DNA from: an uncultured Acidobacteriota bacterium
GTDB taxonomy: Bacteria > Acidobacteriota > Terriglobia > Terriglobales > Acidobacteriaceae
DNA: 64,000 bases
NCBI GenBank assembly: GCA_903851035.1
Contig: CAINND010000060.1
Coordinates: forward strand, 62,001-126,000
Direction: 5' to 3'
The translations under genes and the position numbers were made by a program. This document shows, piece after piece, positions 3,310 to 59,328 of this stretch; the first letter of the stretch is position 1; every line of letters begins with the position of its first letter. The notes below the pieces were generated by a model, which was given only the letters and a program-made list of their open reading frames with translations, did no database searches and was not told the DNA's origin.

Positions 3310-5709
3310 ATGAGGCCATTCTCGGCGGCCTTTCTCGTTGGGCTGTTCCTCGCCTGCGGTGCGCAGATGGCGGCGCAGAGCGGGCGGGCGTTGCTCCTCG
3401 GCATCAATACTTATCAGCCACCGGGCACCACGTCGGAGCATCCGCCGGGCTGTATTTACGGACGCTGCGAGCTGGGAACATTTGAGAACCTGGACGGCGC
3501 GGTCAATGATGCCTCGGCCATGGCCGATCTGCTGATTAGCCCTAAGTTCGGATTTCCCGCCGCGCAGGTTGTGTTGCTCACCAATCCCAACCCAGTCCGT
3601 CCGCACCCTGGTGTTACCGTCCTGCCCGCCGCGCAGACAACACGCGAGGGCATTCTTGCTGCGATGCAGAAGTACCTGGTGGATTTGCCGCAGAAGGGCG
3701 ATAACGTTGTCTTTTATGCGGCCAGCCACGGATCGTTGCGCGTGAACAGCAAGGGCAACAAGCTGACAGTGCTGGTGAATGGCAGGTATCTGCACGCAGA
3801 CAGCACGCTGGTTCCCTCGGACGCCTACAAGGGCGGCTACGACGTGCGCGACCGCGAGATGACCCGCATCTTCAACGCCGCTCTGGACAAGGGAATCCAC
3901 CTGACGGTGATCTTTGACAGTTGCCACAGCGGCGGCATCAGCCGTGGAATCGGCACAAAGTACAAGGAGCGCAAGCTCGCCTTCGATCCCCGCGACATTG
4001 CCGAAGAGCCCGCGACTGATGCAGGCTCGACGCCTCCGACGGAGAGAGCGGACAACCCGGCGCTGGTCTTTACCGCCGTGCAGCAGGATCAGACGGCCAG
4101 GGAACTCCCCCTCAACGCCGCCATCACCGAACCGCATGGCGCCTTTACCGCTGCGCTGATTGAAGCGCTGGAGAGCCTGCCCGCCGCCACGCCTGCATCG
4201 GATGTTTACCAGCGCGTGAAGGCCGTGCTGGAAGGCGGCGAGGTGCCGGAGCAGGAGCCGGAGCTCGACGCGGCCGCCGCGCGTCGCCGTCAGCCTCTTT
4301 TTGGTGGTGCGCCGGCAGAGAACGGCAAGCTGCGCGCCTTTGCCCTGAAGACGGATGACGAAGGAAAGGTGTGGCTGGACATTGGACGCGCCACGGGCAT
4401 CGGCGTGGGCAGTGAGTTCACTTCCATCCCTGCAGATAAGAACGGTGCGGCGGTTCATCTGCGTATCACCGAATTGCAGGGCATCGCCCGCTCCACCGCC
4501 GAAGTGGTCGGTGCCTCCGGCGCAAGAGTGGAAGCCGGAGAGACCTTTGAGCTGACGAAATGGATTCCGGCCGAGTCGGCGCCACTGCGCCTGTGGCACT
4601 GGGCGGCGAATCTCACGGAGGAGCAACTGCGCTCCGCCGTGGACGAGGTACATGCCGCAAGAGTTATTTCGGTCGCCGACCCAGCCGAAGAGCCCTGGAC
4701 GCACATGCTGAGCTGGGATGGCGCGAGTTGGACGTTGCAGCAGGCAGGCGCGGCCACTGTTACAAATCTCGGTGCGCCGCTCGCGGCGAAGACCTTGCAG
4801 CAACATCTTCCCGCCGGTGCCAGGCTGTGGATCAACCTGCCACCGTCGCACGAGTTGGCCGCCAGGCTGCATGCAGAAGACGAAAACAGCAATGTGCAGA
4901 TTTCAATTGATCTTGCCAGCGCACATTACGCGCTCACCGGAGCGCTGGGGCCGGATGGCCCAACCTACGCGTGGTTCCATAAGAATGAGTTGGTAGCCGG
5001 GCCGGTCGCCGCCGCGCGCAGCACTCACACGCCGGGCTGCTCGGAGACATCGCCCTATCCGGTGCGCAGCGACTGGGTGGCCATGACAGGCAGCGGTGCG
5101 ATTGCGGAGCGTGCCGTGTTACTGAATAACTTCGCCGCGCGGCTGGCCAAGGTGCACGGATGGTTGGAACTGGCAGATTCTCCGGCCGGTGCAACCAGCG
5201 GCGGATATTATTCGCTGGCGCTGCTGCCGGCGGCCAATGACGAAGTGCCGCTTGCAAATGACGCACTGGTGCGCGGCGGAGAGCTGTTGCGGATGGCCTT
5301 ACGCTCCGACGAGCGCGTGGTGGAAAAGCGCTGGGTGTATGTGCTGGACATTGACTGCCGCGGCCAGGGCACGCTCATCTATCCGGGAAATTACGCGGAG
5401 AATCAATTTCCCAATGCCGCCGACCGGGGACGCCAGTTTCTGCTGCCGGGTGCGCGAAACCTGCGCGTAGGCCCGCCTTACGGCATGGATACGCTGATTC
5501 TTTTGAGCACCGCACAGCCGTTGCCTGATCCATATGCCTTGAATTTTGAGGGCGCAACTGCACGCGGTGAGCACCGGGCGCAATCTCCGCTGGAGAAGCT
5601 ACTCAACCGCGCCAGCAGCGGCACGCGCGGCACAACCAGCGGAATGCCGGTCAACTGGGGCATCGCGTTGACGCCCCTTCACAGTGTCCCCGAAGGAGAA
5701 AACAAGTGA
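3310..5709 (+). CDS. Exported caspase-like protease (peptidase C14 fold)
   Basis: This 799-residue protein begins with a signal peptide (hydrophobic run, likely cleavage near MAAQS). A caspase-fold domain follows, with ALLLGINTY at about residue 27, catalytic His140 in YAASHGS and catalytic Cys205 in IFDSCHSGG. An acidic loop (YDVRDREM) lies between the two, as in p20-type caspases and metacaspases. Residues about 340-790 form a large extension; a segment near residue 675 (WVYVLDIDCRGQGTLIYP) resembles the DUF4384-type modules often seen behind exported caspase domains. Known relatives cleave after Arg, Lys or Asp; the preference here is unknown. It leads a same-strand run with the Tat protein (70 bp gap) and the TPR-CHAT gene. 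Confidence 0.9.
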   Translation: MRPFSAAFLVGLFLACGAQMAAQSGRALLLGINTYQPPGTTSEHPPGCIYGRCELGTFENLDGAVNDASAMADLLISPKFGFPAAQVVLLTNPNPVRPHPGVTVLPAAQTTREGILAAMQKYLVDLPQKGDNVVFYAASHGSLRVNSKGNKLTVLVNGRYLHADSTLVPSDAYKGGYDVRDREMTRIFNAALDKGIHLTVIFDSCHSGGISRGIGTKYKERKLAFDPRDIAEEPATDAGSTPPTERADNPALVFTAVQQDQTARELPLNAAITEPHGAFTAALIEALESLPAATPASDVYQRVKAVLEGGEVPEQEPELDAAAARRRQPLFGGAPAENGKLRAFALKTDDEGKVWLDIGRATGIGVGSEFTSIPADKNGAAVHLRITELQGIARSTAEVVGASGARVEAGETFELTKWIPAESAPLRLWHWAANLTEEQLRSAVDEVHAARVISVADPAEEPWTHMLSWDGASWTLQQAGAATVTNLGAPLAAKTLQQHLPAGARLWINLPPSHELAARLHAEDENSNVQISIDLASAHYALTGALGPDGPTYAWFHKNELVAGPVAAARSTHTPGCSETSPYPVRSDWVAMTGSGAIAERAVLLNNFAARLAKVHGWLELADSPAGATSGGYYSLALLPAANDEVPLANDALVRGGELLRMALRSDERVVEKRWVYVLDIDCRGQGTLIYPGNYAENQFPNAADRGRQFLLPGARNLRVGPPYGMDTLILLSTAQPLPDPYALNFEGATARGEHRAQSPLEKLLNRASSGTRGTTSGMPVNWGIALTPLHSVPEGENK

Positions 5710-5779
5710 CCTGCGCAGCCAGCATCACGGTGCCGCAATCAGAACGGAAAGCTTCACTCCACAACGAAAGAGAGTTTTT

Positions 5780-6925
5780 ATGTCCATCTCACGACGCCGC
5801 TTTATGACCGATGCCTCATCCTTGGGGCTGCTCGCCGCCATCCTGCCGGAACTGGTGCAGGCACAATCGCAGTCCAGCGCACCTCCACCCTCTCCGGTGG
5901 ATGCGCCGCACGACTCTTTCGATTTTTGGAACGGCTTCTTCGACTCTGTAAACCCATACAGCGAAAATTACGGCAAGAAGTCCGCCACGCGCGGACCACA
6001 AGACCAATTGCCGGAACACGGCGCCGAGACGCAGTATCTGCACTTCAAGGCGGACGAGCGAAAGCTGCGTTACGCGACCGACATCCACAAGGATGAGCTG
6101 CTGAACCACGATGGTGACGTGGCCGTCAGCATCGCGCTTTCGCAATTCCGCACCGGCGAGGGGGACACCAGCGTCCATGGCTCGCAACTGCGCGTGGACA
6201 CAACGCAGATATACCCATACGCGAACATCATCGCGCCGCTTGCCTGGACGGCCATCGCGTCTCTTGCACCGGACAAGGCAGGTAAAGTTTCGCTGGACAG
6301 GCTCGGCTTCAAGACGCCGCAGGCCAGGCAGGGCACCAGCAAGATACTACTCACGCGGGGTACGGGAAAGCTGGCGGTCAATATTTCCAAGGCGCCCTCC
6401 ACATCTGTTTTTGTGAAGGCGCTGCACGTCATGATGGCGGGAGCCAAAATTGCGGCACCACTGGTAAGCCTTCCGGCTGTCAGTGTTCCGGCATTGAGCG
6501 CGTTCACGGAAGTATTGAGTTACTGGGAAGACCGCACGAAATTTTTAATGGCGGGCAATCTTACGTCGGCCATAGCTACGCAACATGCCTTGGGTGATTC
6601 CGAACGCGAAGACCGTTATATCGGCCTTGTCTCCGGCGACTACCTGATGCTGCCCATGAAGCACACGAACGATCTTGCCAAGGAACTGCCGAATCTGGAG
6701 ATCGTGCAGGGGTATCTGGTGCGGAAGGATGCTGATCCGAACCTGCCGATTGAAACGCGGGCGCAGAGCGCGGTCCCCGGCATTACTTATGCATCCATGC
6801 GGGTCAGCGTGCAGAAGCTGGATGGATCGTATAGCAACGAACCCGCAAAGAGCACGGCCGATGCTTGCCCGGCAAGCTCCTCCACGTCATCGAGCAAATC
6901 TAAGTCAAAGGGCAAGACGAAGTAG
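5780..6925 (+). CDS. Tat-exported protein of unknown function, between caspase and CHAT genes
   Basis: The 381-residue protein starts SRRRFMTDAS followed by a hydrophobic run ending near residue 25, a twin-arginine export signal. That implies folding or cofactor insertion before export, unlike its two Sec-type neighbours. ATG at 5780 was chosen because it places the twin Arg motif at the N-terminus; longer in-frame starts overlap the caspase stop. The body contains a hydrophobic, proline-bearing stretch at about residues 215-255. The last 15 residues are almost only Ser and Lys (tail SSSKSKSKGKTK). No family was recognised. Lying 18 bp before the CHAT gene, it may be a substrate, regulator or inhibitor of the flanking proteases; this is inference. 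Confidence 0.75.
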   Translation: MSISRRRFMTDASSLGLLAAILPELVQAQSQSSAPPPSPVDAPHDSFDFWNGFFDSVNPYSENYGKKSATRGPQDQLPEHGAETQYLHFKADERKLRYATDIHKDELLNHDGDVAVSIALSQFRTGEGDTSVHGSQLRVDTTQIYPYANIIAPLAWTAIASLAPDKAGKVSLDRLGFKTPQARQGTSKILLTRGTGKLAVNISKAPSTSVFVKALHVMMAGAKIAAPLVSLPAVSVPALSAFTEVLSYWEDRTKFLMAGNLTSAIATQHALGDSEREDRYIGLVSGDYLMLPMKHTNDLAKELPNLEIVQGYLVRKDADPNLPIETRAQSAVPGITYASMRVSVQKLDGSYSNEPAKSTADACPASSSTSSSKSKSKGKTK

Positions 6926-6943
6926 CCGGGAGAGGAAGGAAAG

Positions 6944-9900
6944 ATGATTCGCCCAGGGAAGGTGCTGGTTTTCGCATGTTTGTGCGCGGTGTTACTTATG
7001 GCAGCAGCGGTCGCCCACGCGCAGAGCGCTCCACTGCGGGAGCAGATTGCGCAGCATGAGCAGAAGCTGGCCGGGGCTCGCGCCGTACACCAGGCACAGG
7101 ATGAAGTTACGCAACTCATCGCCCTGGGCTACCTATACCGCCAGTCCGGCCAAATGCAGAAGGCGCTGGACGCTCTGAACCAGGCACTGGCCGCGGAGCA
7201 GAACGGCGGCGGCCAGGCCACCCGGGCGATGACCCTTAACACCATGGGCAAGGTCTACTCCGACATGGGGCAGCAGCAGAAAGCGCTGGAGTTATTCGGT
7301 CAGGCGCTCGCCATCTGGCAATCTCTCGGCATCCGCGCCGCCGAGGCCAACACCGAGACCTACATGGGCCGTTCGTACAACGAGCTCGGCCAGCGGCAGG
7401 ATGCGCTGAAACATCTGACCAATGCGATGTCCCTTTGGCAGCAGATCGCCACCCAGCCGCAGAACCTGCGTTCCCGATCGCGCATGGGACTCTCGGAGCT
7501 GATGGACCTGAAGCGCCTGAAGGATGCCATGCCGAATCTGCAGGAACTGGTGGAGCACGCAGGGAAGGCCAACACCCTGGACAACCTCGGCAAGACCTAC
7601 TCCGACATGGGTCAGGGCCAACAGGGGTTGGAGTACCTGAAGCAGGCGCTACCCATCTGGCGCGAGGCAGGCGAGCGCAACGGAGAGGCTCTGACGCTGA
7701 ATGACATGGGCCGCACCTGCGCCGATCTGGGACAAAAGCAGAACGCTCTGGACTATTACAACCAGGCGCTCACCTTGTGGCGCAGCATCGGCAATCGGCA
7801 GGGCGAAGCGATGACCCTCAACAGCCTCGGCCGCCTCTATCGCGATCTGGGGCAGCAGCAGTCGGCACTCGATTACTACAACCAGACGCTGCCCATCTGG
7901 CGCGAAGTGCAGAACCGCAACGGCGAGGCCATGGCGCTGAACGACATTGGCCGCGCCTACGCCGACCTGGGGCAGGGACAGAAGGCTCTGGAATATTTTG
8001 ATCGCGCGCTGCCCATCTGGCATGAGACAGGTGCCCGCCGCGGCGAGGCGATGACCATGAACAACGCCGGCCGTGTCTGGTCAGATATGCATGAGCCCGC
8101 CAAGGCGTTGGCCCTCGACGCCGAGGCGCTCGGCATATGGCGAGAGGTGCAGGACCGCCGCGGTGAGGCGCTGTGCCTGATGAGTCTGGGCTGGGCCTAT
8201 TACGAGCAAAAGCAGATTGAACAGGCTCTGGCCAGCGAATTGTCCGCACTGGCCCTGGCCAAGAACGTTGGCGATCCGGAGGTTGAGGGCGTCATCGAGA
8301 CCAGCCTGATGGTTGGCTTCCGCGAGCAGCATCATCCGGAAGAGGCAATTCTGTTTGGCACGGCTGCGGTGAACAGTTTTCAGCAGATTCGCAGGAATAT
8401 CTCGGGGCTGGCTAAGGACCTGCAAACCGGCTTCGTACAGTCGAAGTCTTTCACCTATCGCACGCTCGCCGAGTTGCTGGTGCAATCCGGACGCCTGGGA
8501 GAGGCCGAGCATGTTCTTGATCTGCTGAAGGAACAGGAGTTGAAAGAAGTTGTGCGCGGCGCCGCCGAAAGTGCGACATCCGCCTCTCAACCCCTGGCGC
8601 TGAGCCCCGCGCAGCAGAAAGCAGAGAGCGAACTGACTTCTGCGGAGAAGACAGCCGCCGCCCTGACCGAAATGAACGTGGAGATGTCCCGGCTGCAGGG
8701 CAAGCCGAATCGCACACCCGACGAATCCGTTCGCTTGAAGGCCCTGGAGGCGAAGATTGAAACGGCCAATGCGCAGGTGGCGGAGTTCTTTCGCAAAACG
8801 CTTTATCCCGCGCTGGCGCAACGCTCCGGAGCGCAGGATGCCAACGCCTTGCTCAGCCGGGAAAAGTCGGAGGTCAGCCGCCTGCAGAACACGCTCGCCA
8901 AACTGGGACCGCGCGTCATCGGCATTCGCCTGTTGCTGGGCGAAGCGCACGCCTACCTTATCGTGGTGACGCCACAGGCGCGCCGCAAGTACGAGCTGGC
9001 TGCCGCTCCCGCCGAGTTGCGCAGCAAGGTTCTGCAAGTGCGCGAGGAGCTGCGGCGACCTTCGTCGAATCCGCGGCCTCACCTCGCCGAGCTTTACAAC
9101 ATGGTGGTCGCGCCCCTCGGCAATGAGCTTGCCTCGCTGGCGCAGAGTGCGCAGGGCGAAGCCCGGGCGCCGGTGCTGCTGTGGTCGCTGGATGGCGTGA
9201 TGCGTTACGTGCCCATGGCCGCCTTGTTCGATGGCACACACTACCTGGCCGAACGCTTCAACAACGTACTGTTCACGCCGGAGAGTTACGGACGCATGGC
9301 CTCCGGCGATGACGGCAAGCCTGCGATGCGGGTGCTGGCCATGGGACTCTCCAAAAGTTACAGAGGCTTGCCCGCCCTGCCCGGAGTGCTGCCGGAGTTG
9401 GCTGCCGTGGCCGAAGACCCGGCGGTACCGGAATCGCACGGGCCGATGCACGGACGCCTCTACTATGACGACCGCTTCACCTACGCAGAGCTGAAGGAAC
9501 AACTCGGCTCCGGAGCGGGCTTTCCCGTCGTCCACATTGCCAGCCATTTTGTTCTGGAGGCCGGCGGCGATGCCGAGCCCTATCTGATGCTGGGCGGAGA
9601 AAACGCCGGAGACACCGGTGGCTTCCCCCTCACGCTTTCGCGCATTGAAGAATCCACCATCAACTTTCAGCAGACGCGGCTGCTTACGCTCTCTGCCTGC
9701 AGCACGGCCAAGGGCGATGTGAACAATAATGGTATGGAGATGGACAGCCTTGGCATGATTGCGCAGCAGAAAGGAGCCGGAGCCGTGTTGGCAGCCCTGT
9801 GGGACGTGAACGATGCCAGCACTAGTCGGCTGATGAGCGACTTCTATACACGCTGGGTCACGAATCCTGCGCTCGGCAAGGCCGAGGCGCTGCGCCAGGC

Positions 9901-10054
9901 ACAGATGGATTTTCTGCACGGGCAACAGGCTTCGCCACAGACTGCCCATCGTGGAGTGCAGGCCGTGGAGAATGATTCTGCCGGGGCGCCGCGCTCCGGA
10001 TACGCGCACCCATTTTACTGGGCGCCGTTCATTCTGATTGGCGATTATCAATAG
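6944..10054 (+). CDS. Exported TPR-CHAT protease-like protein
   Basis: This 1036-residue protein has a signal peptide ending near AVAHAQS. Tetratricopeptide repeats with a 40-residue (120 bp) period run from about residue 85 to 440; typical units read AMTLNSLGRLYRDLGQQQSALDYYN in pattern. A charged helical linker follows (about 540-640), then a C-terminal CHAT domain, the caspase-like fold named for 'Caspase HetF Associated with TPRs'. The predicted catalytic pair is His868 in HIASHF and Cys919 in LSACSTAKG, so the enzyme appears intact. The ribosome binding site AGGAAGGAAAG sits directly before ATG 6944. CHAT proteins described in defence systems are cytoplasmic; this one should act outside the inner membrane. 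Confidence 0.92.
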   Translation: MIRPGKVLVFACLCAVLLMAAAVAHAQSAPLREQIAQHEQKLAGARAVHQAQDEVTQLIALGYLYRQSGQMQKALDALNQALAAEQNGGGQATRAMTLNTMGKVYSDMGQQQKALELFGQALAIWQSLGIRAAEANTETYMGRSYNELGQRQDALKHLTNAMSLWQQIATQPQNLRSRSRMGLSELMDLKRLKDAMPNLQELVEHAGKANTLDNLGKTYSDMGQGQQGLEYLKQALPIWREAGERNGEALTLNDMGRTCADLGQKQNALDYYNQALTLWRSIGNRQGEAMTLNSLGRLYRDLGQQQSALDYYNQTLPIWREVQNRNGEAMALNDIGRAYADLGQGQKALEYFDRALPIWHETGARRGEAMTMNNAGRVWSDMHEPAKALALDAEALGIWREVQDRRGEALCLMSLGWAYYEQKQIEQALASELSALALAKNVGDPEVEGVIETSLMVGFREQHHPEEAILFGTAAVNSFQQIRRNISGLAKDLQTGFVQSKSFTYRTLAELLVQSGRLGEAEHVLDLLKEQELKEVVRGAAESATSASQPLALSPAQQKAESELTSAEKTAAALTEMNVEMSRLQGKPNRTPDESVRLKALEAKIETANAQVAEFFRKTLYPALAQRSGAQDANALLSREKSEVSRLQNTLAKLGPRVIGIRLLLGEAHAYLIVVTPQARRKYELAAAPAELRSKVLQVREELRRPSSNPRPHLAELYNMVVAPLGNELASLAQSAQGEARAPVLLWSLDGVMRYVPMAALFDGTHYLAERFNNVLFTPESYGRMASGDDGKPAMRVLAMGLSKSYRGLPALPGVLPELAAVAEDPAVPESHGPMHGRLYYDDRFTYAELKEQLGSGAGFPVVHIASHFVLEAGGDAEPYLMLGGENAGDTGGFPLTLSRIEESTINFQQTRLLTLSACSTAKGDVNNNGMEMDSLGMIAQQKGAGAVLAALWDVNDASTSRLMSDFYTRWVTNPALGKAEALRQAQMDFLHGQQASPQTAHRGVQAVENDSAGAPRSGYAHPFYWAPFILIGDYQ

Positions 10055-10118: not shown

Positions 10119-10209
10119 TTTTACCGCGCTACGGCCGCGCTACGAAGAAAAGCGCCTCGCAAGTGATTGACTGCGAGGCGCTTAAAACTTATGGTGCCGA
10201 AGAAGGGAC
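10119..10209 (-). repeat. Right copy of tRNA-Leu 3' end/terminator repeat (candidate att site)
   Basis: This copy includes the 3' end of the intact tRNA-Leu gene, its terminator and the flanking block TTTTACCGCGCTAC. It carries an extra partial duplication (CGCGCTAC appears twice) that the left copy at 1199-1278 lacks. The two copies are in the same orientation about 8.9 kb apart. Confidence 0.6.
10145..10183 (-). terminator. Rho-independent terminator of tRNA-Leu
   Basis: A perfect 12-bp stem, AAGCGCCTCGCA (10150-10161) with TGCGAGGCGCTT (10172-10183), is followed on the minus strand by a TTTTC tract. It lies about nine bases past the CCA end of the tRNA and also faces the 3' end of the CHAT gene. 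Confidence 0.8.
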
Positions 10210-10278
10210 TCGAACCCCCACACCCTTGCGAGTACATGGACCTGAACCATGCGCGTCTGCCAATTCCGCCACTTCGGC
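10192..10278 (-). tRNA. tRNA-Leu (anticodon CAG)
   Basis: The 87-nt cloverleaf has acceptor arms GCCGAAG and CTTCGGC, discriminator A and an encoded CCA. The anticodon stem CATGG/CCATG encloses loop TTCAGGT, giving anticodon CAG for CUG codons. A long variable arm typical of class II leucine tRNAs is present, and the T arm has GGGGGTTCGAGTCCCC. The gene abuts the right boundary of the putative island, and its 3' end is repeated at 1261-1278. Confidence 0.96.
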
Positions 10279-15801: not shown

Positions 15802-15990
15802 CGCCCGCCGCCTTGCATCGCAGCCATGTTACTTGCTTGGCCACCGTTCGCCCTCTCAACCTGGGAACCCAAATCGTCAACAGTACGAAGGTCACGAAGA
15901 CTGCCTTGAATGTTACTCTGACCATCGCACTCCACTTTGGCCCGCACCCCGGTCAAAGACCATTTCGACGGAACCACAGGAGACGATGTC

Positions 15991-16497
15991 TTGCGCATGA
16001 CGAAGGGCTTTTCAGTGATTGAGCTTGTTATTGTGCTGGCGATCATCATGGTCATCACCGCCATCGCCATCCCCACCCTGTTGCGCTCGCGCATCGCCTC
16101 CAATGAGGCCTCAGCCGTCAGCTCTCTGCATGCCATCGGCACGGCTCAATCAACCTACGCCACGGCCAATCCGACCATCGGCTACGCCAGCAGCCTGGGC
16201 GTGCTGGGCGGCACCGGTACGGCGGCCACCAGCACCAACGCGCTGCTGCTGGATAGCGTGCTCGGCGCGGTCTCTCCCGGTGGTGGCTCGGCTGCCGCGC
16301 CCAACGCCAAGTCGGGATACAACTTTTACGTGGCAAGCGTCTCCACGGCCTCTGGACTGGTGAACTCCTACCAGTTAAATGCCAACCCCACGGTAGCGGG
16401 CCAGACCGGCCAGCGCTATTTCTATATGGATCCTTCGGTGGTCATCCGCTACAACACGGCCAGCGCGGCCACTTCCACGGACAGCGCTATACAGTAG
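15991..16497 (+). CDS. Type IV prepilin (PilA-like pilin)
   Basis: The 168-residue protein has a class III signal: a short basic leader, the cleavage Gly in TKG, then FSVIELVIVLAIIMVITAIAIP with the required Glu at +5 of the mature protein. After the helix comes a Ser/Thr/Ala/Gly-rich globular part ending FYMDPSVVIRYNTASAATS, with almost no charged residues. TTG 15991 is chosen because AGGAGA is seven bases upstream; ATG 15997 is the alternative and gives a very short leader. The prepilin peptidase and assembly ATPase genes are not in the window. Confidence 0.88.
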   Translation: MRMTKGFSVIELVIVLAIIMVITAIAIPTLLRSRIASNEASAVSSLHAIGTAQSTYATANPTIGYASSLGVLGGTGTAATSTNALLLDSVLGAVSPGGGSAAAPNAKSGYNFYVASVSTASGLVNSYQLNANPTVAGQTGQRYFYMDPSVVIRYNTASAATSTDSAIQ

Positions 16498-50095: not shown

Positions 50096-51421
50096 ATGCA
50101 GCGCTTACGGCGTTTTGTAACCTTGCTACCAATCCTGCTCCTGCTCCCGATGGCGCTTATGGCGCAGCAGGGCTTGCCGGATGCGCCCAAGCCGCAGAAC
50201 CAGGCGAGCGGCCTGCCGGATGCGCCAACTTCCAACCGCACCCTGCCGACGGCCGAGGCCAGCCCCAGCAATCAGACCAGGCAGCAGACGGGCGAGGCGA
50301 CCTCCGTGGATACGGCCACGCAGGCCGAGATCAACGCCGCGCAGGAAACACCGCCGCCAAACGCTCCACCGCCGGGACGCATTATGCCAAGCAACCGCCG
50401 GGCCAATGCCACCAGCAGCGGCTACGATGAAACCAAGGGACTGATCTCCGTAAACGTAAACGCCGTGCCGATTTCGGTGACGGTGAAGGACGCCACGGGA
50501 CGGCTCTTTCCCGGCCTGACAAAAGACAACTTTACGGTATATGAGGACGGCGTAAAGCAGCGCATTGCGTTCTTTACCAGCGACCCCTTCCCGGTTTCGG
50601 CCGCCGTCATCATTGACGTGGGCATGCCGGAGATTGCGCTGCGCAAGGTGAAGGAGACGGTCAGCGCACTGGTGGGCAGCTTCAGCCAGTTCGACGAGCT
50701 GGCGGTTTACACCTACGGCAACACGGTGAAGCAGCAGCAGGATTACCTGGCGGCGTTGGGCGACAGCACTAGCCGCACGCTGTCACGCATCCAGCAGTTG
50801 CAGGGCACCAGCAGCGGCCCGGGTGTGTATAACCCGATGACCGCAGGCCCCTCGGTGAATGGCCGCGTCTTCGATCCCGGCCTTATGCGCAACCCGATTG
50901 AGGGCGCGCCGCCCAAGAACGCGGAGCCCTCGCGCGTGCTGAACGACGCCATCCTGCAGGCGGCCCGCGACCTGAGCCGCCGCGAAAAAGCCCGCCGGCG
51001 CGTCATCTTTGTGCTGAGCGACGGCCGTGAATATGGCAGCCACGCCAGCTACAACGATGTGAAGAAGGTGCTGCTGACCAACAACGTGGTTGTGTACGGC
51101 GCGGCCCTGGATGCCTCGGCCATCAAGTACTACAACAAGATCGCCCGCATCCACCTGCCCACACAGGGATACGCAAATATCCTGCCGAAGTACGCCTCGG
51201 CCACCGGCGGAGAGATATTTACGGAGTTTACGGCGGCGGCACTGGAGTCGGCATACGGCAGCGCCATGGAAGAATCGCGCAGCCAGTACACGCTGGTGTA
51301 TTACACGGATGCAACGGCTTCCACCGCATACCGCAAGATTGAAGTGCGCGTGGGTGGCTACGGACCGAGTTTGAAGGTATATGCACGCGACGGCTACTAC
51401 CCGGCGCCGCAAAAGCAGTAA
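50096..51421 (+). CDS. Exported VWFA-related acidobacterial-type protein with degenerate metal site
   Basis: The 441-residue protein has a signal peptide (cleavage near MAQQG), a linker with two LPDAP units, the family module ISVNVNAVPISVTVKDATGRLFPGLTKDNFTVYEDGVKQRIAFF, then a VWA domain. The usual DxSxS metal site is replaced by DVGMP in AAVIIDVGMPEIALRKV, so metal-dependent ligand binding is probably lost; IFVLSDGREYGS is retained. The C-terminus YTLVYYT..KVYARDGYYPAP matches the family. ATG 50096 follows GGAGG. Confidence 0.88.
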   Translation: MQRLRRFVTLLPILLLLPMALMAQQGLPDAPKPQNQASGLPDAPTSNRTLPTAEASPSNQTRQQTGEATSVDTATQAEINAAQETPPPNAPPPGRIMPSNRRANATSSGYDETKGLISVNVNAVPISVTVKDATGRLFPGLTKDNFTVYEDGVKQRIAFFTSDPFPVSAAVIIDVGMPEIALRKVKETVSALVGSFSQFDELAVYTYGNTVKQQQDYLAALGDSTSRTLSRIQQLQGTSSGPGVYNPMTAGPSVNGRVFDPGLMRNPIEGAPPKNAEPSRVLNDAILQAARDLSRREKARRRVIFVLSDGREYGSHASYNDVKKVLLTNNVVVYGAALDASAIKYYNKIARIHLPTQGYANILPKYASATGGEIFTEFTAAALESAYGSAMEESRSQYTLVYYTDATASTAYRKIEVRVGGYGPSLKVYARDGYYPAPQKQ

Positions 51422-51590
51422 CCACCGGTTGATATTGAGGTTACGGGAGTTCCGGGAGACGGGTACGGGCTCCCGGCAGCCACCGGGGTTGTGATATAAC
51501 CCAAGTAACTGCTGATACATGCATTACAGCACTGAAACACCGGAATGACCCGCGCGTTACGGACGGCAGAGATTGCCGGAAGAACGAACG

Positions 51591-52229
51591 GTGACGGAGG
51601 CCGCCACGGGGGCGGCTCTGAGTCGGGATAAGGTCGAGGATTCCTTGAGCTTCATCAACTTCGCTGCTCGCGAGATCAACTGCAAGATCGTCTACTACGG
51701 CCCTGGACTGGGCGGCAAGACGACGAATCTGCAGCATATCTTCGACAAAACGGGCGAGCAGCAGAAGGGCAAGATGATCAGCCTTGCGACGGAGACCGAC
51801 CGTACGCTGTTCTTCGATTTCCTACCCCTCGACCTGGGCACGATTCGCGGCTTTAAGACGCGCTTTCACCTTTACACCGTACCTGGACAGGTCTTCTACG
51901 ACGCTTCACGCAAGCTGATTCTGCGAGGTGTTGACGGCGTGGTCTTTGTTGCCGACTCGCAGGCCGAGCGCGCCGACGCCAACGTGGAAGCCCTGGACAA
52001 CCTGGTGGGTAACCTGCACGAACATGGCTATGACTTCAAGACCATTCCCTATGTGCTGCAACTGAATAAGCGCGACCTGCCGAACATCCTGACGGCCGAC
52101 GAGATGCGCCACCAGTTGCGCCGCCGCGAAGAGCCTTCCTACGAATCCATCGCCTCGCAGGGCATCGGCGTGTTTGAGACCTTGAAGGAAATCGCCCGCC
52201 AGGTGCTGGTGGAGCTGAAGAAGAGCTAG
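51591..52229 (+). CDS. mglA: MglA-type small GTPase
   Basis: The 212-residue protein has [29 protein letters not shown] (P-loop GPGLGGKT), the switch-region [46 protein letters not shown] and the NKRD specificity motif. MglA is a Ras-like polarity switch controlling gliding and type IV pilus placement, normally with MglB as its GAP. A short N-terminal extension precedes the canonical start. GTG 51591 has GGAAG upstream; TTG 51573 is the alternative. No mglB lies nearby. Confidence 0.93.
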
Positions 52230-52390
52230 CCCGGCTTTATCCCCTCTTGCGAACTTCTCTGCTTTCATAAACATATCCATGCAACTTATTTCTGCGTCTC
52301 AGGGCGCTGACGCCGGATTTTGCCTGTAACTTTTCGCGCTGATTGCCATCTAAGCTGAGGCAGGGCGTAGTGTGCGCCCGAGGAGAAGCC

Positions 52391-53347
52391 GTGAAGCAGC
52401 GAATTGAGCAGCCGAAATCCAGTGAGATTACTCCGCGCGAGTTGTATATGAGCCGCCGCAGCTTTCTGACCGCTGCGGCCGGTATTGGCGCCGCCGCCCT
52501 GGGCGCGGAGAAGGTGAACGAGTTGCTGCATCCGCTGACGGTAAAGGCCGCGACGCACCTGAATGCACAGCGCAGCCCGATCAGCACCACGGGCGAGAAG
52601 CAGACGCCGTACCAGGACGTGACCAGCTACAACAACTTCTACGAGCTGAGCACGGACAAGGAGACGCCGGCGCGCATCGCTTCGAGTTTTCATCCGCTGC
52701 CGTGGACGCTGCAGATTGACGGGCTGGTAGGGCGTCCGCTGAAGCTGGACTATGACGAATTGATGAAGCTGGCGCCGCTGGAAGAGCGCGTGTATCGGCA
52801 CCGCTGCGTGGAGGGCTGGTCGATGGTCATCCCGTGGATTGGCTTTCCGCTGAAGGCACTGCTGGACCGTGTGCAGCCCACCGGACAGGCGCGCTACGTG
52901 GCGTTTACCAGCGTGACGCGTCCCAAGGAGTTGCCGGGGCAGCAGCGCGGCGTGCTGAACTGGCCGTACAAAGAAGGACTGCGGCTGGATGAGGCGATGA
53001 ATCCGCTGACGCTGCTGACCGTTGGTCTTTACGGCGAGGTGCTGCCCAACCAGAACGGCGCGCCGGTGCGCATTGTGGTGCCGTGGAAGTACGGCTTCAA
53101 GAGCGCCAAGAGCATTGTGCGCATCACACTGACCGACCGGATGCCGCCGACGAGCTGGAACGAGTCGAATCCGAGCGAGTACGGATTTTATTCCAACGTG
53201 AACCCCAAGGTGGACCATCCGCGCTGGAGCCAGGCGCGGGAACGCCGCATCGGCGAGCTCTTTCGCCGGGAGACGCTGCTGTTCAACGGCTACGGAGACT
53301 TTGTGGCCGGCATGTACAAGGGCATGGATCTGCGAAAGGATTTCTAG
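52391..53347 (+). CDS. msrP: Protein-methionine-sulfoxide reductase catalytic subunit MsrP
   Basis: The 318-residue Tat protein starts [31 protein letters not shown]. The molybdopterin domain includes the Mo-binding Cys139 in [17 protein letters not shown], and [21 protein letters not shown]. MsrP (YedY) reduces methionine sulfoxide in periplasmic proteins using quinol electrons via the membrane heme protein MsrQ. AGGAGAAG precedes GTG 52391. No msrQ gene lies nearby; the next gene is an Er-VIT protein. Confidence 0.94.
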
Positions 53348-53389
53348 GAGCGATTGTCTCCCGCGGCGTGACGCGGTTATCATGGCCGC

Positions 53390-54583
53390 ATGAACTCGGC
53401 GGCGAATCGTAAAATTCTAGAGGCGCTCTCACAGAACTGGCAGACCGAGATGCGCGGCTTCCACACCTATAAAACTCTGGCTGAGCGCGATGGCGACCCA
53501 TACCGCAAGCGCACGCTGAACCACATGGCGCAGGCCGAGGCTCGGCACGCCGCCATGTGGGCCAAGCGTATTCATGAGCTTGGCGGCACTATTCCGCAAT
53601 ATGACGGCAAGGCCGGAGGCGAAGCCGATTCCCTGACCACGCGCGTGGGCGGCCCCGGCATGGCACTGCGCAGGCTGGAGATTGACGAAAGCCGCGACAT
53701 TGCCAAGTACGGCCAACAGATTGAGGAACTGGGCGACGAGCCCAGCGTGGCCATTCTGCGCGAAGTCATCGCCGACGAGCAGGAACATTATCGCGAGCTG
53801 GGCGAACTGATACGCAATCACTATCCGCGTTCGGCCGTGGAAGAAACGACTGGCGATCCGAAGTCGGTGATTGCAGACCTTCTCTCCAAACGTAACAATG
53901 CCGGCAAGCAGGCGGCGGGGTGGATTGGCGACGCGATTTATGGCGTCAACGACGGACTAGGCGCAATCTTCGGCATTGTCAGCGGCGTGAGCGGCGCGAC
54001 GCTGGGCAACTCGCACTACGTGCTGCTGGCAGGCATTGCCGGCATGGTAGCCAGCTCGCTGAGCATGGGCAGCGGGGCGTACTTGGCGGCCAAGAGCGAG
54101 CGCGAAATCTACGAGGCAGAACTGGCACGCGAGCGCGAAGCCATCCAGACGAACAACATCGAGGCGCGCGAACTGCTCTCACTCTACTACCAGGTGAAGG
54201 GGCTGCCGGAAGATGACGCCGACCGCGTGGTGGAGCACATCGCGAAAGATCCCGAGCAGATGGTGCGGGTGCTGGCCGGCGAAAGGCTGAACGCCACGGA
54301 GGAGGCTTTGAGCAATCCCGTGACATCGGCCTTTAGTGGCGCGCTGAGCACGGCTGTGGGCGCCTTTGTGCCGATCATTCCCTTCTTCTTCTGGGGCGGA
54401 TACCCGGCGGTGATCGCGTCGGCCATCATCAGCCTGGCGGCGCACTTTGCGGTGGGCGCAGCCAAGAGCCTGATTACCGTGCGCTCGTGGTGGGCGAGCG
54501 GCTTTGAGATGACTGCCGTGGGCGCCATCGAAGGCGTGGTGACATACCTGATCGGCGTTGGCATTGGCCACATGGGCGGTTAG
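53390..54583 (+). CDS. Er-VIT (MbfA-like) ferritin/iron transporter
   Basis: The 397-residue protein has an N-terminal rubrerythrin-like di-iron domain: Glu/His positions in NWQTEMRGFHTY, MAQAEARHAAMW and EVIADEQEHYREL. A C-terminal VIT1/CCC1 membrane domain follows, with GDAIYGVNDGLGAIFGIV, SSLSMGSGAYLAAKSE and about five helices. This is the architecture of MbfA, which exports iron or protects against peroxide. It starts 42 bp after msrP, so a shared oxidative-stress transcript is plausible. A terminator follows at 54677. Confidence 0.93.
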   Translation: MNSAANRKILEALSQNWQTEMRGFHTYKTLAERDGDPYRKRTLNHMAQAEARHAAMWAKRIHELGGTIPQYDGKAGGEADSLTTRVGGPGMALRRLEIDESRDIAKYGQQIEELGDEPSVAILREVIADEQEHYRELGELIRNHYPRSAVEETTGDPKSVIADLLSKRNNAGKQAAGWIGDAIYGVNDGLGAIFGIVSGVSGATLGNSHYVLLAGIAGMVASSLSMGSGAYLAAKSEREIYEAELAREREAIQTNNIEARELLSLYYQVKGLPEDDADRVVEHIAKDPEQMVRVLAGERLNATEEALSNPVTSAFSGALSTAVGAFVPIIPFFFWGGYPAVIASAIISLAAHFAVGAAKSLITVRSWWASGFEMTAVGAIEGVVTYLIGVGIGHMGG

Positions 54584-54676
54584 CAGCGCGGCTTTCGCAA
54601 TTGCGCGTTGAAGACATGATGCCGGACGACAACGTTACATCATGACACGCGAAACAGATGCGGGATGAAGGAAATC

Positions 54677-54706
54677 AAAAACGGATGCACATGGCATCCG
54701 TTTTTT
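54677..54706 (+). terminator. Terminator of the msrP/Er-VIT run
   Basis: Stem AAAACGGATGC/GCATCCGTTTT with loop ACATG and a run of six T. Its T-run overlaps the -35 box of the tRNA-Pro promoter. Confidence 0.85.
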
Positions 54707-54732
54707 GCGCAATCGTTCGGCTCTGCTATAAT
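54705..54732 (+). promoter_or_regulatory. Promoter of tRNA-Pro
   Basis: TTGCGC (54705-54710), 16 bases, TATAAT (54727-54732), about 35 bases before the tRNA. Confidence 0.7.
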
Positions 54733-54767
54733 TATTTCTGCGCGGCGCCAGTCGCGTGTTTTCGTGT

Positions 54768-54844
<77 letters not shown>

Positions 54845-55120
54845 TTATTTCCCTTTAGCCCTGTTGAATATCCCGTCAAAGGGCTTTCTGTATGCAGGCG
54901 TGATGCTTGCGCCGTCAATCGTGCAGTTCAAAAGTACTTTTCTGAGCAAATCGGCTTGTTCGGCGGATTTGCGCGTAAGGTACAGCGAATGAGTACGTTG
55001 CGCGAGTTCTAAAATCCTCTGCACATCGAGCAGCTTTTGAGCAAGGCGGGAAATCTGTGCGCCGTATTGCGCACCATGACAACAATGGCAGTCTCGTATT
55101 TTGTTGTACGAAACTGCCAT
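54845..55120 (-). pseudogene. Serine site-specific recombinase, C-terminal remnant
   Basis: The 91-codon frame ends one base after the tRNA-Pro CCA. Its last 55 codons read like the C-terminus of zinc-ribbon large serine recombinases: ILELAQRTHSLYLTRKSAEQ, LLRKVLLNCTIDG, PAYRKPFDGIF, RAKGK. The catalytic Ser domain and the rest of the protein are absent. The first codons fall inside a long inverted repeat and are probably not original. It is best read as the scar of an element that integrated at this tRNA and was later deleted. Confidence 0.7.
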
Positions 55121-55124
55121 TGTT
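55081..55124. repeat. 18-bp inverted repeat at the end of the recombinase remnant
   Basis: Arms 55081-55098 (AACAATGGCAGTCTCGTA) and 55107-55124 match at 17 of 18 positions around an 8-base centre. Neither side has a T-run, so a plain terminator is not favoured; a recombination or element-end site is possible. Confidence 0.7.
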
Positions 55125-55170
55125 GGTGAATCTTATTTGGTTTTATCCAGCTTGGTACCTTTGCATCACA

Positions 55171-58100
55171 CTAATGCGACTCGATGTACTGATAGCTGGA
55201 AGACACTTCTTTGCCGTTCACCAATGACCAGAGCGTCACGTAAATCGTGTTGCTATTCGTCGGCAGAGTCAGCGTCATGCTGCTGCCGCTGGCCACACCG
55301 GCGTTGCCCAGGTCCAAACCGCCAGGCGTCGAGCCAACCCAGATGTAATACGGGCCGGTCGAACCATTGGCGCTCCAGGTGAACGTCGTCGAAGCGCCCG
55401 TTAGCGTGCTGCCGTTGGCCGGAGTGCTCATCGTCGCCGGAAGCATGGTCGCTTCCGTGTACGTGTAGCTCTTCGAAACTCCGCCACCATTCAGCGTGGA
55501 CCACAGCGTCACGTAAATCGTGTTGCTATTCGTCGGCAGAGTCAGCGTCATGCTGCTGCCGCTGGCCACACCGGCGTTGCCCAGATCCAGCCCTCCAGGC
55601 GTCGAGCCAACCCAGATGTAGAACGGGCCGGTCGAACCGTTGGCGCTCCAGGTGAACGTCGTCGCGGCGCCACTCAGCGTGCTGCCGCTGGTCGGAGAGC
55701 TCATGGACGCAGGGAGTAGCGAGGCCTCCGTGTAGGTGTAGCTATTGGACACCTCGTTGCCGTTTACCGACGACCACAGCGTGACGTAAATCGTGTTGCC
55801 CGTGGTCGGCAGGTTCAGCGTCATGCTGCTGCCGCTGGCCACACCGGCGTTGCCCAGATCCAACCCGCCAGGCGTCGAGCCAACCCAGATGTAATACGGA
55901 CCACTCGAACCGTTTGCACTCCAGGTGAACGTCGTCGCGGCGCCAGTCAACGTGCTGCCGTTGGTCGGAGTGGTCATCGTCGCCGGTGACGCGGTGCCGA
56001 CACCCTGCAATGAGATTGACTGGGTGGCCGAGCTGGCGTTCAGCGTGTTGTCGGTCAGCACCACGCTGCCGCTGATGATGCCCGCCGTGGTGGGCGCGAA
56101 CTCAATGCCCAGGACGCAACTGGCGGCGGGAGTGAGCGTCTGGCTGCCCGTGGAGCAGGTGGTATCGGCTCCGCCAAGTGAGAAGTTGGCGGCCGTGCTG
56201 ATGCTGGCGATGTTCAGGCTGGCGTTGCCCAGGTTGAGCACGCTTACATCCTGCGCCGCGCTGGTTGAGTTCGGCGCAATCGAGCCGAAGTTCAGCGACG
56301 GCGCGTCAGAGACATCCACCTTGCGGATGCGCTGGTTGACTGTGTCTGGAATGTAGAGATTGCCAGTGCTATCCACCGCTACGGCATGGGGAAGGTTAAG
56401 CGCAGCGCTGGTGGCAGCGATATTGTCACCGTTATAGCCAGCGGTTCCCGTGCCAGCCGCGGTTGTGATGATGCCCGTCGAGGCCGTCACCTTGCGAATG
56501 CTATTGTTGCCATAATCTCCGATGTAAAGGTTGCCAGCGCTATCCACCGCTACACCAGAGGGACCGTATAATTCCGCGCTGGTGGCGGCGATGTTGTCGC
56601 CGTTATAGCCTGAGGTTCCCGTACCGGCCACAGTGGTGATGATGCCCGTCGAGGCCGTCACCATGCGGATACGCTGGTTATGGAAATCTGCAATGTAGAG
56701 GTTGCCCGCCGAATCCACCGCAACGCCAAACGGATAATCTAATTCCGCGCTAGTGGCGGCGCTGTTGTCGCCGTTGTAGCCCGCGGTTCCCATACCGGCC
56801 ACAGTAGTGATGATGCCCGTTGAGGCATTCACCTTGCGGATGCGCTCGTTGTAAACATCTGCAATATAGAGATTGCCCGCCGAATCCACGGTGACGCCAT
56901 AGGGAAGGTTGAGTTGTGCGCTGGTGGCGGCGATGTTGTCGCCGTTATAGCCAGCGGTTCCCGTACCAGCCACGGTGGTGATGGTGCCCGTCGAGGCCGC
57001 GACCATACGGATGCGGCTATTGTCAGGATCCGCAATGTATAGGTTGCCCGCGCCATCCACCGCAACGCCGAAGGGGCCGTTGAGTTGTGCGCTGGTAGCG
57101 GCGATATTGTCGCCGTTGTAGCCTGCGGTTCCCGTGCCAGCCACGGTAGAGATGATGCCCGTCGAGGCCGTGACCTTGCGGATGCGCTGGTTGGTGAAAT
57201 CTGAGATGAAGAGGTTACCCGCGCCATCTACCGCAATGCCTAAGGGGCTGTTCGTTTCCGCGGCGGTTGCCGCGCCGCTATCGCCGCTGTAGCCTTGCGT
57301 CCCATTGCCCGCCACGGTGCTGATTATGCCGGGGCCGAAGGCCACCAGAGGGCCTGTGCCGGTTCCTTCCAACGCAAACTGAAAGTTGCCCGCGCTGGTC
57401 TGCACTACCAGGGGCATTTGGCGCTGGCCGGGGAAGGCCGGAGTGAAGGTGATGGGAACGGAGCAGATGCTGCCCGCTGAATTCGATGTGATGCCATCGG
57501 TCGCACATCCGCTGACGGCGCCCACGGTGAATTCATGCTGGCCGCCCTGCGATGACGGTACGGTAACGCTGCTGATGGTGAGCGCCGCGTTCACGTAGAG
57601 CAAAAGGCTCTGCGGGGCAGAGGTTGCGCCCACGGCAGTGTTCAAAAAGCTCAGTGGCGCGGTAGCCGCATTTACCTTGCGAACCTGGCTGGTGTCTTCG
57701 TCTGCGATATACAGGTTTCCCGCGGCATCCAGTGCTACACCGAAGGGGGCGTAGATGGCTGAACTGGTGGCGGGCAATCCATTGCTATCGTCGCCATATG
57801 TGCCATTGCCCGCCACGGTGGTAATGATGCCCGTGGATGCATTGACCATGCGAATACGGCCATCAACCTGGTCGGCGAAATAGAAGTTGCCCGCGCCATC
57901 CACGGTAATGCCCATGGGATTGTACATGGTCGCGCTGATAGCGGGGCCACCGTCGCCGCTATAGCCGTATGAGCCGTTGCCCGCCACCGTATTGATGATG
58001 CCCGTCGAGGCCGTCACCATGCGGACGCGGTTGTTGTAGAGATCGCAGATGTAGAGGTTTCCCGTACTATCCAGAGCAATGCTGTATGGATAGTAGAGCT

Positions 58101-58866
58101 TGGCGTTTACAGCGGGGCCGGTGTCACCGCTAAATCCATAACCGCCCGTGCCCGCCACCGTGGTGATGATGCCCGTGTAAGCGCTGACTTTGCGGACGCG
58201 ATTGTTGTAGTCATCCGCGATGTAGATGTTCCCCACGCTATCCACGGCAACGCTGGTGGGGTTATAGAGTTCGGCGGTGATGGCGCTGATGTTGTCGCCG
58301 TTCCAGCCACCATAACCCGTACCCGCCACCGTGGTTATGATTCCGGTGGAAGCATTCACCTTGCGGATGCGGCTATTGGAGGAATCCGCGATGTAGAGGT
58401 TGCCCGCACTGTCCAGGGCAACGGCGTTGGGGTAATAAAGTTCGGCGCTGGTGGCGGCGATGTTGTCTCCGTTATAGCCGCCGGTGCCCGTGCCCGCCAC
58501 CGTGGTGATGATGCCCGTAGCGGCATTTACCTTGCGCACGCGGTTGTTCTGGTTATCCGCGATGTATAGGTTGCCCGCGCTATCCACGGCAATGCCGGTT
58601 GGGTAGTTGATATATGCGCTGGTGGCGGGACCATTATCGCCGCCATAGTACGCGTCCCCATTGCCGGCCACGGTATTAATTGCCGGTTGCACAGTGAGAG
58701 CAGGTGTTTGCGCTAGAGCTGTACCCGCACTGGCCCACATCACTGCAATGAGCAATAAAAAGAACATTGCAACCTTGGCGTCCCCACGATTAGAGGAGTT
58801 GCCCCAGATGGAAAACAGTGAGGTGAAAGCGCGGCGAATGGATGTAATTGGGGCGGTCAGCGGCAT
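55171..58866 (-). CDS. Giant exported NHL-repeat protein with three C-terminal tandem modules
   Basis: The 1231-residue protein has a long N-terminal signal/anchor (hydrophobic run VAMFFLLLIAVMWASAGTALA). Twelve NHL units of 57 residues follow (pattern TTVAGTGTAGYNGDN, then PxGVAVDSAGNLYIAD, NxRIRKV), in two blocks of six that would form beta-propellers. A Choice-of-anchor-D-like domain separates the blocks; another follows the second (LNFGSIAPNSTSAAQDV). The C-terminus is three near-identical 91-residue modules (FTWSANGSTGPYYIWVGSTP). AAGGAGC precedes ATG 58866. Likely a surface or secreted binding protein; ligand unknown. Confidence 0.88.
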   Translation of the reverse strand: MPLTAPITSIRRAFTSLFSIWGNSSNRGDAKVAMFFLLLIAVMWASAGTALAQTPALTVQPAINTVAGNGDAYYGGDNGPATSAYINYPTGIAVDSAGNLYIADNQNNRVRKVNAATGIITTVAGTGTGGYNGDNIAATSAELYYPNAVALDSAGNLYIADSSNSRIRKVNASTGIITTVAGTGYGGWNGDNISAITAELYNPTSVAVDSVGNIYIADDYNNRVRKVSAYTGIITTVAGTGGYGFSGDTGPAVNAKLYYPYSIALDSTGNLYICDLYNNRVRMVTASTGIINTVAGNGSYGYSGDGGPAISATMYNPMGITVDGAGNFYFADQVDGRIRMVNASTGIITTVAGNGTYGDDSNGLPATSSAIYAPFGVALDAAGNLYIADEDTSQVRKVNAATAPLSFLNTAVGATSAPQSLLLYVNAALTISSVTVPSSQGGQHEFTVGAVSGCATDGITSNSAGSICSVPITFTPAFPGQRQMPLVVQTSAGNFQFALEGTGTGPLVAFGPGIISTVAGNGTQGYSGDSGAATAAETNSPLGIAVDGAGNLFISDFTNQRIRKVTASTGIISTVAGTGTAGYNGDNIAATSAQLNGPFGVAVDGAGNLYIADPDNSRIRMVAASTGTITTVAGTGTAGYNGDNIAATSAQLNLPYGVTVDSAGNLYIADVYNERIRKVNASTGIITTVAGMGTAGYNGDNSAATSAELDYPFGVAVDSAGNLYIADFHNQRIRMVTASTGIITTVAGTGTSGYNGDNIAATSAELYGPSGVAVDSAGNLYIGDYGNNSIRKVTASTGIITTAAGTGTAGYNGDNIAATSAALNLPHAVAVDSTGNLYIPDTVNQRIRKVDVSDAPSLNFGSIAPNSTSAAQDVSVLNLGNASLNIASISTAANFSLGGADTTCSTGSQTLTPAASCVLGIEFAPTTAGIISGSVVLTDNTLNASSATQSISLQGVGTASPATMTTPTNGSTLTGAATTFTWSANGSSGPYYIWVGSTPGGLDLGNAGVASGSSMTLNLPTTGNTIYVTLWSSVNGNEVSNSYTYTEASLLPASMSSPTSGSTLSGAATTFTWSANGSTGPFYIWVGSTPGGLDLGNAGVASGSSMTLTLPTNSNTIYVTLWSTLNGGGVSKSYTYTEATMLPATMSTPANGSTLTGASTTFTWSANGSTGPYYIWVGSTPGGLDLGNAGVASGSSMTLTLPTNSNTIYVTLWSLVNGKEVSSSYQYIESH
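55178..55996 (-). repeat. Three tandem 273-bp repeats
   Basis: The marker CTGGCCACACCGGCGTTGCC recurs at 55289, 55562 and 55835, a period of exactly 273 bp (91 codons). The copies are nearly identical at DNA level, implying recent duplication or ongoing homogenisation. Confidence 0.9.
56330..58700 (-). repeat. NHL-coding tandem repeats, 171-bp period
   Basis: The element GTTGTCGCCGTT recurs at intervals of 171 bp (for example around 56590, 56761, 56932 and 57103), matching one 57-residue NHL unit. Two blocks of six units are separated by a non-repeat segment at about 57330-57680. Confidence 0.8.
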
Positions 58867-59310
58867 GGGAGCAGCTCCTTAAAGGAATCTTTACGCACAG
58901 GGAAATAGGGACGGCAGGTATGGAACTGGCACAGGCAGGTCTTCGCGGACGCGCGGCTGTTGGCGCCCGTGGGGACACAGTCAGGTACAAAGACCATCGT
59001 GGATGGTGCGCGCAACTCGATGCCGTGCAAGGCCAATCCTCTACCGTTGGATCGATGATTCCTTATGAAGATGCGGGCTTCGGGTGGCGATTGCGGCCGA
59101 ACCAGAGCCTTAGTAACTGAATATGCAGTGCATGTAATGAGCCCCCAAACAGCCATCCCCCACGGATGACGATGAAAAGTGCAAGGAGTCTATGCCAGCA
59201 TCTGGAATATTGCTATAAAATTTTCCTCAATTTTCGCCTGTGTTCATGCGGTCAATCAGACAAGTTGCGGATCGCAAGGCCCCAGCGATCGAAAACCCGG
59301 CGAAAGGAAG
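58867..59310. other. Divergent intergenic region between the NHL gene and mtgA
   Basis: No gene is supported. An AT-rich patch near 59205-59235 (GCTATAAAATTTTCCTC) is the likeliest promoter area; no complete -35/-10 pair was assigned. Confidence 0.4.
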
Positions 59311-59328
59311 CCTGTATCCTGATACAGG
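59311..59328 (+). promoter_or_regulatory. Perfect palindrome between ribosome binding site and start of mtgA
   Basis: CCTGTATC-CT-GATACAGG is a perfect 8-bp dyad. AAAGGAAG ends at 59310 and ATG begins at 59329, so the palindrome fills exactly the gap between them. As RNA it could close a hairpin that brings the ribosome binding site to the start; as DNA it could be an operator. Confidence 0.65.

Follow-up and report, generated by a model that had tools for sequence, protein, structure and literature searches.

The 64,000-nucleotide stretch analysed here (the window), taken from contig CAINND010000060.1 of an uncultured Acidobacteriota bacterium, carries on one strand three adjacent genes for a long C14 caspase-like protein (LC14), a protein of an unnamed family with a twin-arginine translocation (Tat) signal (TATF), and a protein in which tetratricopeptide repeats (TPRs) precede a CHAT protease domain (TPR-CHAT). 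These genes are one form of a conserved, variable Acidobacteriota cassette, in which TATF is optional, as are a further family (FAM2) and a short C14 protein. Conservation of the cassette, linkage of its genes, intact catalytic dyads and conserved signal-like N-termini were all demonstrated computationally. The novelty lies in the cassette itself, which is conserved, modular and of caspase fold, with export signals on its parts, and in its Tat-exported partner family; taken singly, the parts other than TATF and FAM2 are of known kinds. Some soil Acidobacteria carry a recurring gene set of two or three caspase-like proteases, all seemingly exported and often accompanied by a protein that leaves the cytoplasm in folded form, which suggests a caspase-type system at work outside the cytoplasm. 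We are highly confident that this is a real exported cassette of cooperating proteases. The best reading overall, to which a probability of about one half is given, is a cassette of caspase-fold proteases that act outside the cytoplasm, TATF being their pre-folded, regulated partner.

Conservation and linkage of the cassette

The LC14 gene (3310..5709, + strand) encodes 799 amino acids (aa), with a signal-like N-terminus, a C14 domain at about residues 25-322 and a C-terminal part whose end matches DUF4384 weakly. It is followed on the same strand, after 70 bases, by the TATF gene (5780..6925, +; 381 aa, with a Ser/Lys-rich C-terminal tail) and, after a further 18 bases, by the TPR-CHAT gene (6944..10054, +; 1036 aa), whose product has a signal-like N-terminus, the TPRs and a C-terminal CHAT domain (His868/Cys919). 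The layout given in the original prediction, a Tat-signal protein between a C14 and a CHAT protease, was therefore recovered, as were the open reading frame (ORF) coordinates claimed for both proteases. The TATF start is most likely the ATG at 5780: the Tat motif follows closely on this codon, and a longer GTG ORF from 5684 overlaps the LC14 stop. By eye, a purine-rich stretch resembling a ribosome site lies ahead of the TPR-CHAT ATG. The terminator scan gave no + strand candidate between the three genes, its matches being at shuffle level, and promoter and terminator predictions at the locus were not above shuffles. Searches of the window's genome with Pfam models, and with the long-C14 profile and the CHAT domain, gave no C14 or CHAT domain beyond these two.

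A single-protein search recovered TATF from 9 of 150 genomes of the order, and a profile search from 31 of 397 (30 after one weak partial match was dropped); among 396 genomes spread over the phylum it was found in 3, one of them weak. Two of the 35 TATF profile rows were excluded (G559:C373, E 5e-4, 50 residues; G649:C303, partial) and 33 copies were retained; loci L075 and L085, discussed below, lie outside these. A C14 or CHAT gene was present on the same fetched stretch for 29 of the 33 copies, 26 by hidden Markov model (HMM) and 3 more by an LC14 C-terminus or TPR-CHAT N-terminus at a contig end. The four copies with no partner lie on short contigs (L014, 6,649; L056, 4,167; L070, 3,604; and L071, 4,584 bases). 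The conserved co-occurrence check set out in the original prediction thus gave a positive answer, and confinement to a single strain, named there as a refutation, does not hold. For one weak TATF match outside the order (G204), the 20 kb retrieved contained neither C14 nor CHAT.

A partner was observed in 26 of 28 TATF genomes, against about 0.6 of 28 expected by chance in 20 kb. The chance estimate used 28 of the 30 TATF genomes (G650 and G682 were left out), with 60 C14 and 77 CHAT domains; both counts are lower bounds, as the scan of G073 gave a C14 at 647,280 and missed a confirmed one at about 644,000. The locus C14 and CHAT HMMs were built from six and four domains, respectively, of these same loci, after Pfam confirmation. 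Across the 397 genomes, relatives of LC14 (E <= 1e-30) occurred in 33, TATF in 30 and both in 22 (Fisher p ~1e-21, with relatedness not corrected and the two genes not always at one locus). The linkage spans two families of the order. The named carriers are metagenome-assembled genomes, including Acidobacteriaceae with peat, bog, palsa and fen labels, a Terracidiphilus and one labelled Candidatus Acidiferrales.

The fullest cassette runs long C14, TATF, FAM2, short C14 and TPR-CHAT (L054 and L059; also L085, with broken TATF and FAM2 frames), and the FAM2 and short C14 genes overlap by four bases in L054. Shorter forms were long C14-TATF-FAM2-short C14 (L052, L061, L064), TATF-FAM2-short C14 (L011, L058, L060, L062, L063), CHAT-long C14-TATF (L010) and TATF beside a C14-TPR protein (L015). 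Looser neighbours were a divergent C14 gene in L013 and a C14 gene separated by about 3 kb from the broken TATF of L068. The genes of the trio described by the original prediction recur together, with its exact order again in L075, but the cassette comprises up to five genes, occurs in varied subsets and can lack TATF, which speaks against taking the trio as the unit.

Two further genes were seen near cassette members. A gene of M48-metalloprotease/TPR type lies near TATF or long C14 in L013 (Pfam M48, E 6.9e-15), L014 and L068 (same BLAST cluster) and L106 (by eye), and may be a further cassette protease. In L053 and L055 a small gene, hydrolase-like and by eye signal-like at its start, lies between TATF and CHAT; in L089 and L092 it lies just after CHAT.

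Caspase-fold proteases and their export signals

The Peptidase_C14 model of Pfam matched LC14 at residues 25-322 (E 9.1e-18), the DUF4384 match being under its cut-off. In the LC14 model (mean predicted local distance difference test score, pLDDT, 64.8) the metacaspase match extended over residues 21-336, with a VIA-align Z of 22.4 against AtMCA4 (6w8s_C; root-mean-square deviation 4.6, 224 aligned), 17.8 against yeast Yca1 and 16.8 against bacterial GSU0716. With a Pfam C14 domain, a His/Cys dyad and a metacaspase fold in the model, LC14 was classed among the orthocaspases/metacaspases. The TPR-CHAT protein matched CHAT (PF12770) at residues 713-1034 (E 1.1e-50), in addition to TPRs, and the CHAT profile with its His and Cys places it among the CHAT proteases. 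Its TPR part gave the only match to PHROGs. The catalytic residues proposed for the two proteins (His140/Cys205 in C14, His868/Cys919 in CHAT) were confirmed and fall in catalytic columns common to relatives at these loci; in the TATF loci together with L075 and L085, all 33 C14 and all 11 CHAT domains had an intact dyad by alignment. The short C14 was considered as a pseudo-enzyme when its DxCHSG motif was seemingly missing, but alignment gave an intact DTCYSG and the idea was rejected.

Asp67 and Asp203 of LC14 fall, by alignment, at positions occupied by acids in yeast and trypanosome metacaspases, and were invariant in 12 LC14s. The aligned acids of the metacaspase pocket presumably favour Arg or Lys before the cut, and because LC14 has acids of this type, it is predicted to cleave after Arg/Lys. 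Among distant long C14 genes, those of L102, L104 and L109 have a neighbour sharing a 'GFSIESEMLTYRA'-like stretch, perhaps another partner family, and that of L108 (9039-11396, - strand) has an N-terminus that by eye is itself Tat-signal-like (LTRRAVIELTALSLL). FAM2 is TPR-like at most, and no assignment was made; its best matches among PDB profiles were TOM20-3, at E 0.065, and designed proteins.

Export signals were scored with a home-made rule, not a trained predictor, which called for a hydrophobic stretch, upstream Lys/Arg and a small-x-small site. The rule was applied to the 45 residues before the domain motif, leaving seven long C14 ORFs and the motif-less CHAT ORFs unscored. Signal-like N-termini were found in 28 of 28 LC14, 14 of 14 short C14, 16 of 19 CHAT and 4 of 4 scored FAM2 proteins; control ORFs passed in 16 of 47 cases, some of them perhaps exported. 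The general secretory (Sec) signals that had been claimed for both proteases are accordingly signal-like and conserved, on the basis of this rule and of conservation across loci. For the middle protein, Tat export had been claimed, and a twin-arginine start was conserved in all 30 TATF rows holding the N-terminus and is followed by a hydrophobic stretch. Against the NCBIfam model TAT_signal_seq (TIGR01409) the window's TATF scored 16.8 bits, the cut-off being 16.7; the L012 copy was under the cut-off and the L017 copy gave no match.

TATF and its relation to the proteases

TATF matched no Pfam model, as scanned for the window's protein and a minority of its homologues, and no PADLOC model, and a profile search of PDB gave a best E of 0.73. 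Foldseek gave nothing at E <= 0.001 against solved structures, the model being too poor to exclude a fold. Nine residues were invariant in a 24-row alignment (R5, R6, W50, L107, G194, P227, Y288, G311 and Y337). Neither Cys nor His is among them, and this counts against Tat export being due to a metal or Fe-S cofactor. Seven pairs were tried for the ratio of nonsynonymous to synonymous substitution rates (dN/dS), and the six in which dS was usable gave values of about 0.08-0.25, in keeping with retained function, one of the lowest values having a dS near 2.9; dS was not usable for the pair formed by the window copy and that of L054. N-terminus and tail counts were made on 32 rows, outside of which the broken L068 copy lies. 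The tail was at least 25 residues long in 22 of these rows and was mostly rich in Ser, Gly, Ala and Lys. In 29 of the 32, the 19-residue stretch of highest hydrophobicity in the mature part fell within a segment at about residues 208-246; as this segment may be buried core or a membrane element, the idea of TATF as a pore-former is speculation. Broken TATF frames were seen in L068 (9141-10204) and L085 (10001-11054), and in L056 (185-1750, - strand) the TATF frame continues for about 120 residues beyond the Ser-rich tail, which may reflect either a gene fusion or an artefact of assembly close to the end of the contig.

In the extracytoplasmic cassette that we favour, the proteases would share one pathway, working in the periplasm or on the cell surface, with TPR-CHAT, and perhaps FAM2, supplying protein-protein docking. 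TATF would take the Tat route, and so be exported in a folded state, because the proteases need to receive it as a finished domain; on arrival it would be their regulated partner, most likely as a proteolytic substrate or effector and less likely as an inhibitor. It is probable that TATF is acted on by the proteases or acts on them. That it is specifically their substrate or effector is a more tentative proposal, falling somewhat short of an even chance, and is still the likeliest single role, with an inhibitor as its chief rival. Basic P1 sites are available in the Lys/Ser-rich tail that most copies have, which fits the substrate or effector role. The interpretation given in the original prediction is supported in part: the genes recur together beyond this strain, with conserved export signals and active sites, and the proteolytic cascade that it put forward, with the TPRs as the sensor, is a possibility.

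Several observations weigh against the favoured reading. The TATF tail is short in 10 of 32 rows, and an AlphaFold model built on 15 rows reached a pLDDT of 44.4, giving no usable model. At some loci TATF stands with one protease type, either CHAT (L012, L016, L069) or short C14 (L011, L062, L063), so that no fixed cascade is needed, and in L017 the C14 gene lies about 5 kb and several genes away from TATF. Inspection of 19 long-C14 loci that lack TATF gave eight with both long C14 and CHAT, arranged as long C14-CHAT (L086-L088, L101, L103) or long C14-FAM2-short C14-CHAT (L098-L100); TATF is therefore not the sole substrate. In three genomes of one genus (G575, G666 and G668), long C14-CHAT (L086-L088) and a TATF locus (L060, L056 and L058) were on different contigs. 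A further nine of the inspected loci had neither TATF nor CHAT near the long C14, which indicates that long C14 can also stand alone; identity to the window LC14 was 65% for L091 and 32-41% for the distant L102 and L104-L110. The remaining loci were a long C14-FAM2 pair at a contig end (L111) and a long C14 at a contig end (L112).

These exceptions bear on two other explanations. TATF could be a co-exported inhibitor or chaperone that restrains the caspase-fold proteases outside the cell, and would then not be their substrate. Its presence beside LC14, short C14 and CHAT in varied gene order is in keeping with this role, and an alignment free of invariant Cys or His fits a binding protein. A protease paired with an inhibitor would be expected to retain it, however, and the eight loci with LC14 and CHAT and no TATF suggest that the proteases are tolerated alone, so we consider this role somewhat unlikely. 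A looser grouping, of secreted C14 and CHAT proteases with independent roles in envelope or extracellular protein turnover and TATF as a structural envelope protein, would account for the varying subsets: the nine loci above, and six loci with stand-alone CHAT genes that score high on the cassette HMM and have no C14 (L089, L090, L093, L094, L095, L097; L092 and L096, each cut by the end of its contig, were not counted). Occurrence in 30 of 397 genomes likewise fits a dispensable trait. Such a grouping is nevertheless unlikely given linkage far above chance across two families of the order, and given the closeness of the genes, which are separated by short gaps or overlap, as FAM2 and short C14 do by four bases in L054.

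Genomic setting and described systems

The cassette is bordered in the window by a tRNA-Leu (CAG) gene (10192..10278, - strand) and, on its other side, by a divergent neighbour, P4L (P0004; 1543..3027, -), a possible accessory gene. P4L has no Pfam family; a homologue 43% identical to it is the first, same-strand gene of the L055/L078 cassette, and fragments are found next to those of L053 and L075. Three congeners had the same tRNA-Leu and downstream genes, and neither TATF nor long C14 was found there; a serine-recombinase-like fragment (by eye; L121, 1-420, +) lies a few kb from the tRNA-Leu in a cassette-less congener. A mobile island was considered and rejected, as GC content was even and a duplicated tRNA end was not found (integrases were not searched for). 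Elsewhere in the window a type IV pilin-like protein is encoded at 15937..16497 (+), by eye, and genes resembling a nitrogenase (nif) cluster, also by eye, lie to the left of the window (L018; G000:C60, about 50,700-59,700).

An anti-phage or cell-death system akin to the cytoplasmic caspase/CHAT systems, shifted to the periplasm, would be in line with the patchy distribution, with the position beside a tRNA-Leu whose neighbours differ among the three congeners, and with PADLOC, of which the 'caspase' model matched LC14 (E 1.1e-14) and the 'TPR' model matched TPR-CHAT (E 1.6e-33). Yet toxin, nuclease or sensor ATPase models matched none of the four window proteins scanned, TATF was matched neither in a search of 72,556 plasmids nor in a pattern scan of viral contigs, and no duplicated tRNA end was found (integrases were not searched for). 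This explanation is therefore regarded as very unlikely.

To our knowledge, the characterised bacterial caspase-fold systems act in the cytoplasm. LC14 has in common with bacterial orthocaspases and metacaspases the C14 p20 domain, the His/Cys dyad and the metacaspase fold, in the parts of the literature consulted (PMC3501461, PMC6426788). Three papers in the literature searched name DUF4384 and caspase together. A 2012 survey describes metacaspase operons, operons containing several metacaspases from four bacterial groups, and possible signal peptides in the form of N-terminal helices; in the portions consulted, a conserved, all-exported cassette with CHAT and a Tat protein does not appear (PMC3501461). 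The type III-E CRISPR TPR-CHAT system of Csx29 type (Craspase) is marked by a linked Cas7-11 and by action in the cytoplasm. The likeness to its TPR-CHAT protein lies in TPR repeats followed by a CHAT protease domain, as far as the sections seen describe it (PMC9729208, PMC9935389). The cassette TPR-CHAT, in contrast, bears a conserved signal-like N-terminus, which speaks against cytoplasmic action. Bacterial gasdermin operons are similar in that a caspase-like protease stands beside a gene of unknown fold that is its possible target. The cassette differs from them, to the extent of the account consulted (PMC9079055), in having export signals on all parts. As for a gasdermin-fold partner, TATF gave no match in the family libraries or to solved structures, its model being too poor to judge the fold. 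The short C14 and LC14 resemble the EACC1-associated caspases (NF047832), both falling under the 140-bit cut-off (window LC14, E 5.9e-05, 22.7 bits; short C14 of L073, E 1.8e-29, 102.8 bits). The statement of the original prediction that no described system with this layout was known to it agrees with the matches listed in the full-text literature, among which there was none; most subscription papers and all preprints were outside its scope.

A conserved cassette exported in all its parts would shift caspase-fold chemistry to the envelope, and would pose a tractable question, that of the targets of exported orthocaspases and CHAT proteases. Use of Sec for the proteases and of Tat for the partner would be a testable way of separating protease and target until after export. 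It is conceivable, if doubtful, that the cassette is an extracytoplasmic execution or signalling pathway of Gram-negatives, in which two or three Sec-exported, TPR-docked caspase-fold proteases act on a pre-folded protein delivered by Tat. Were this so, a dangerous or regulated product would be made only after both had crossed the inner membrane, and the cassette would be a periplasmic counterpart of caspase-gasdermin or Craspase logic.

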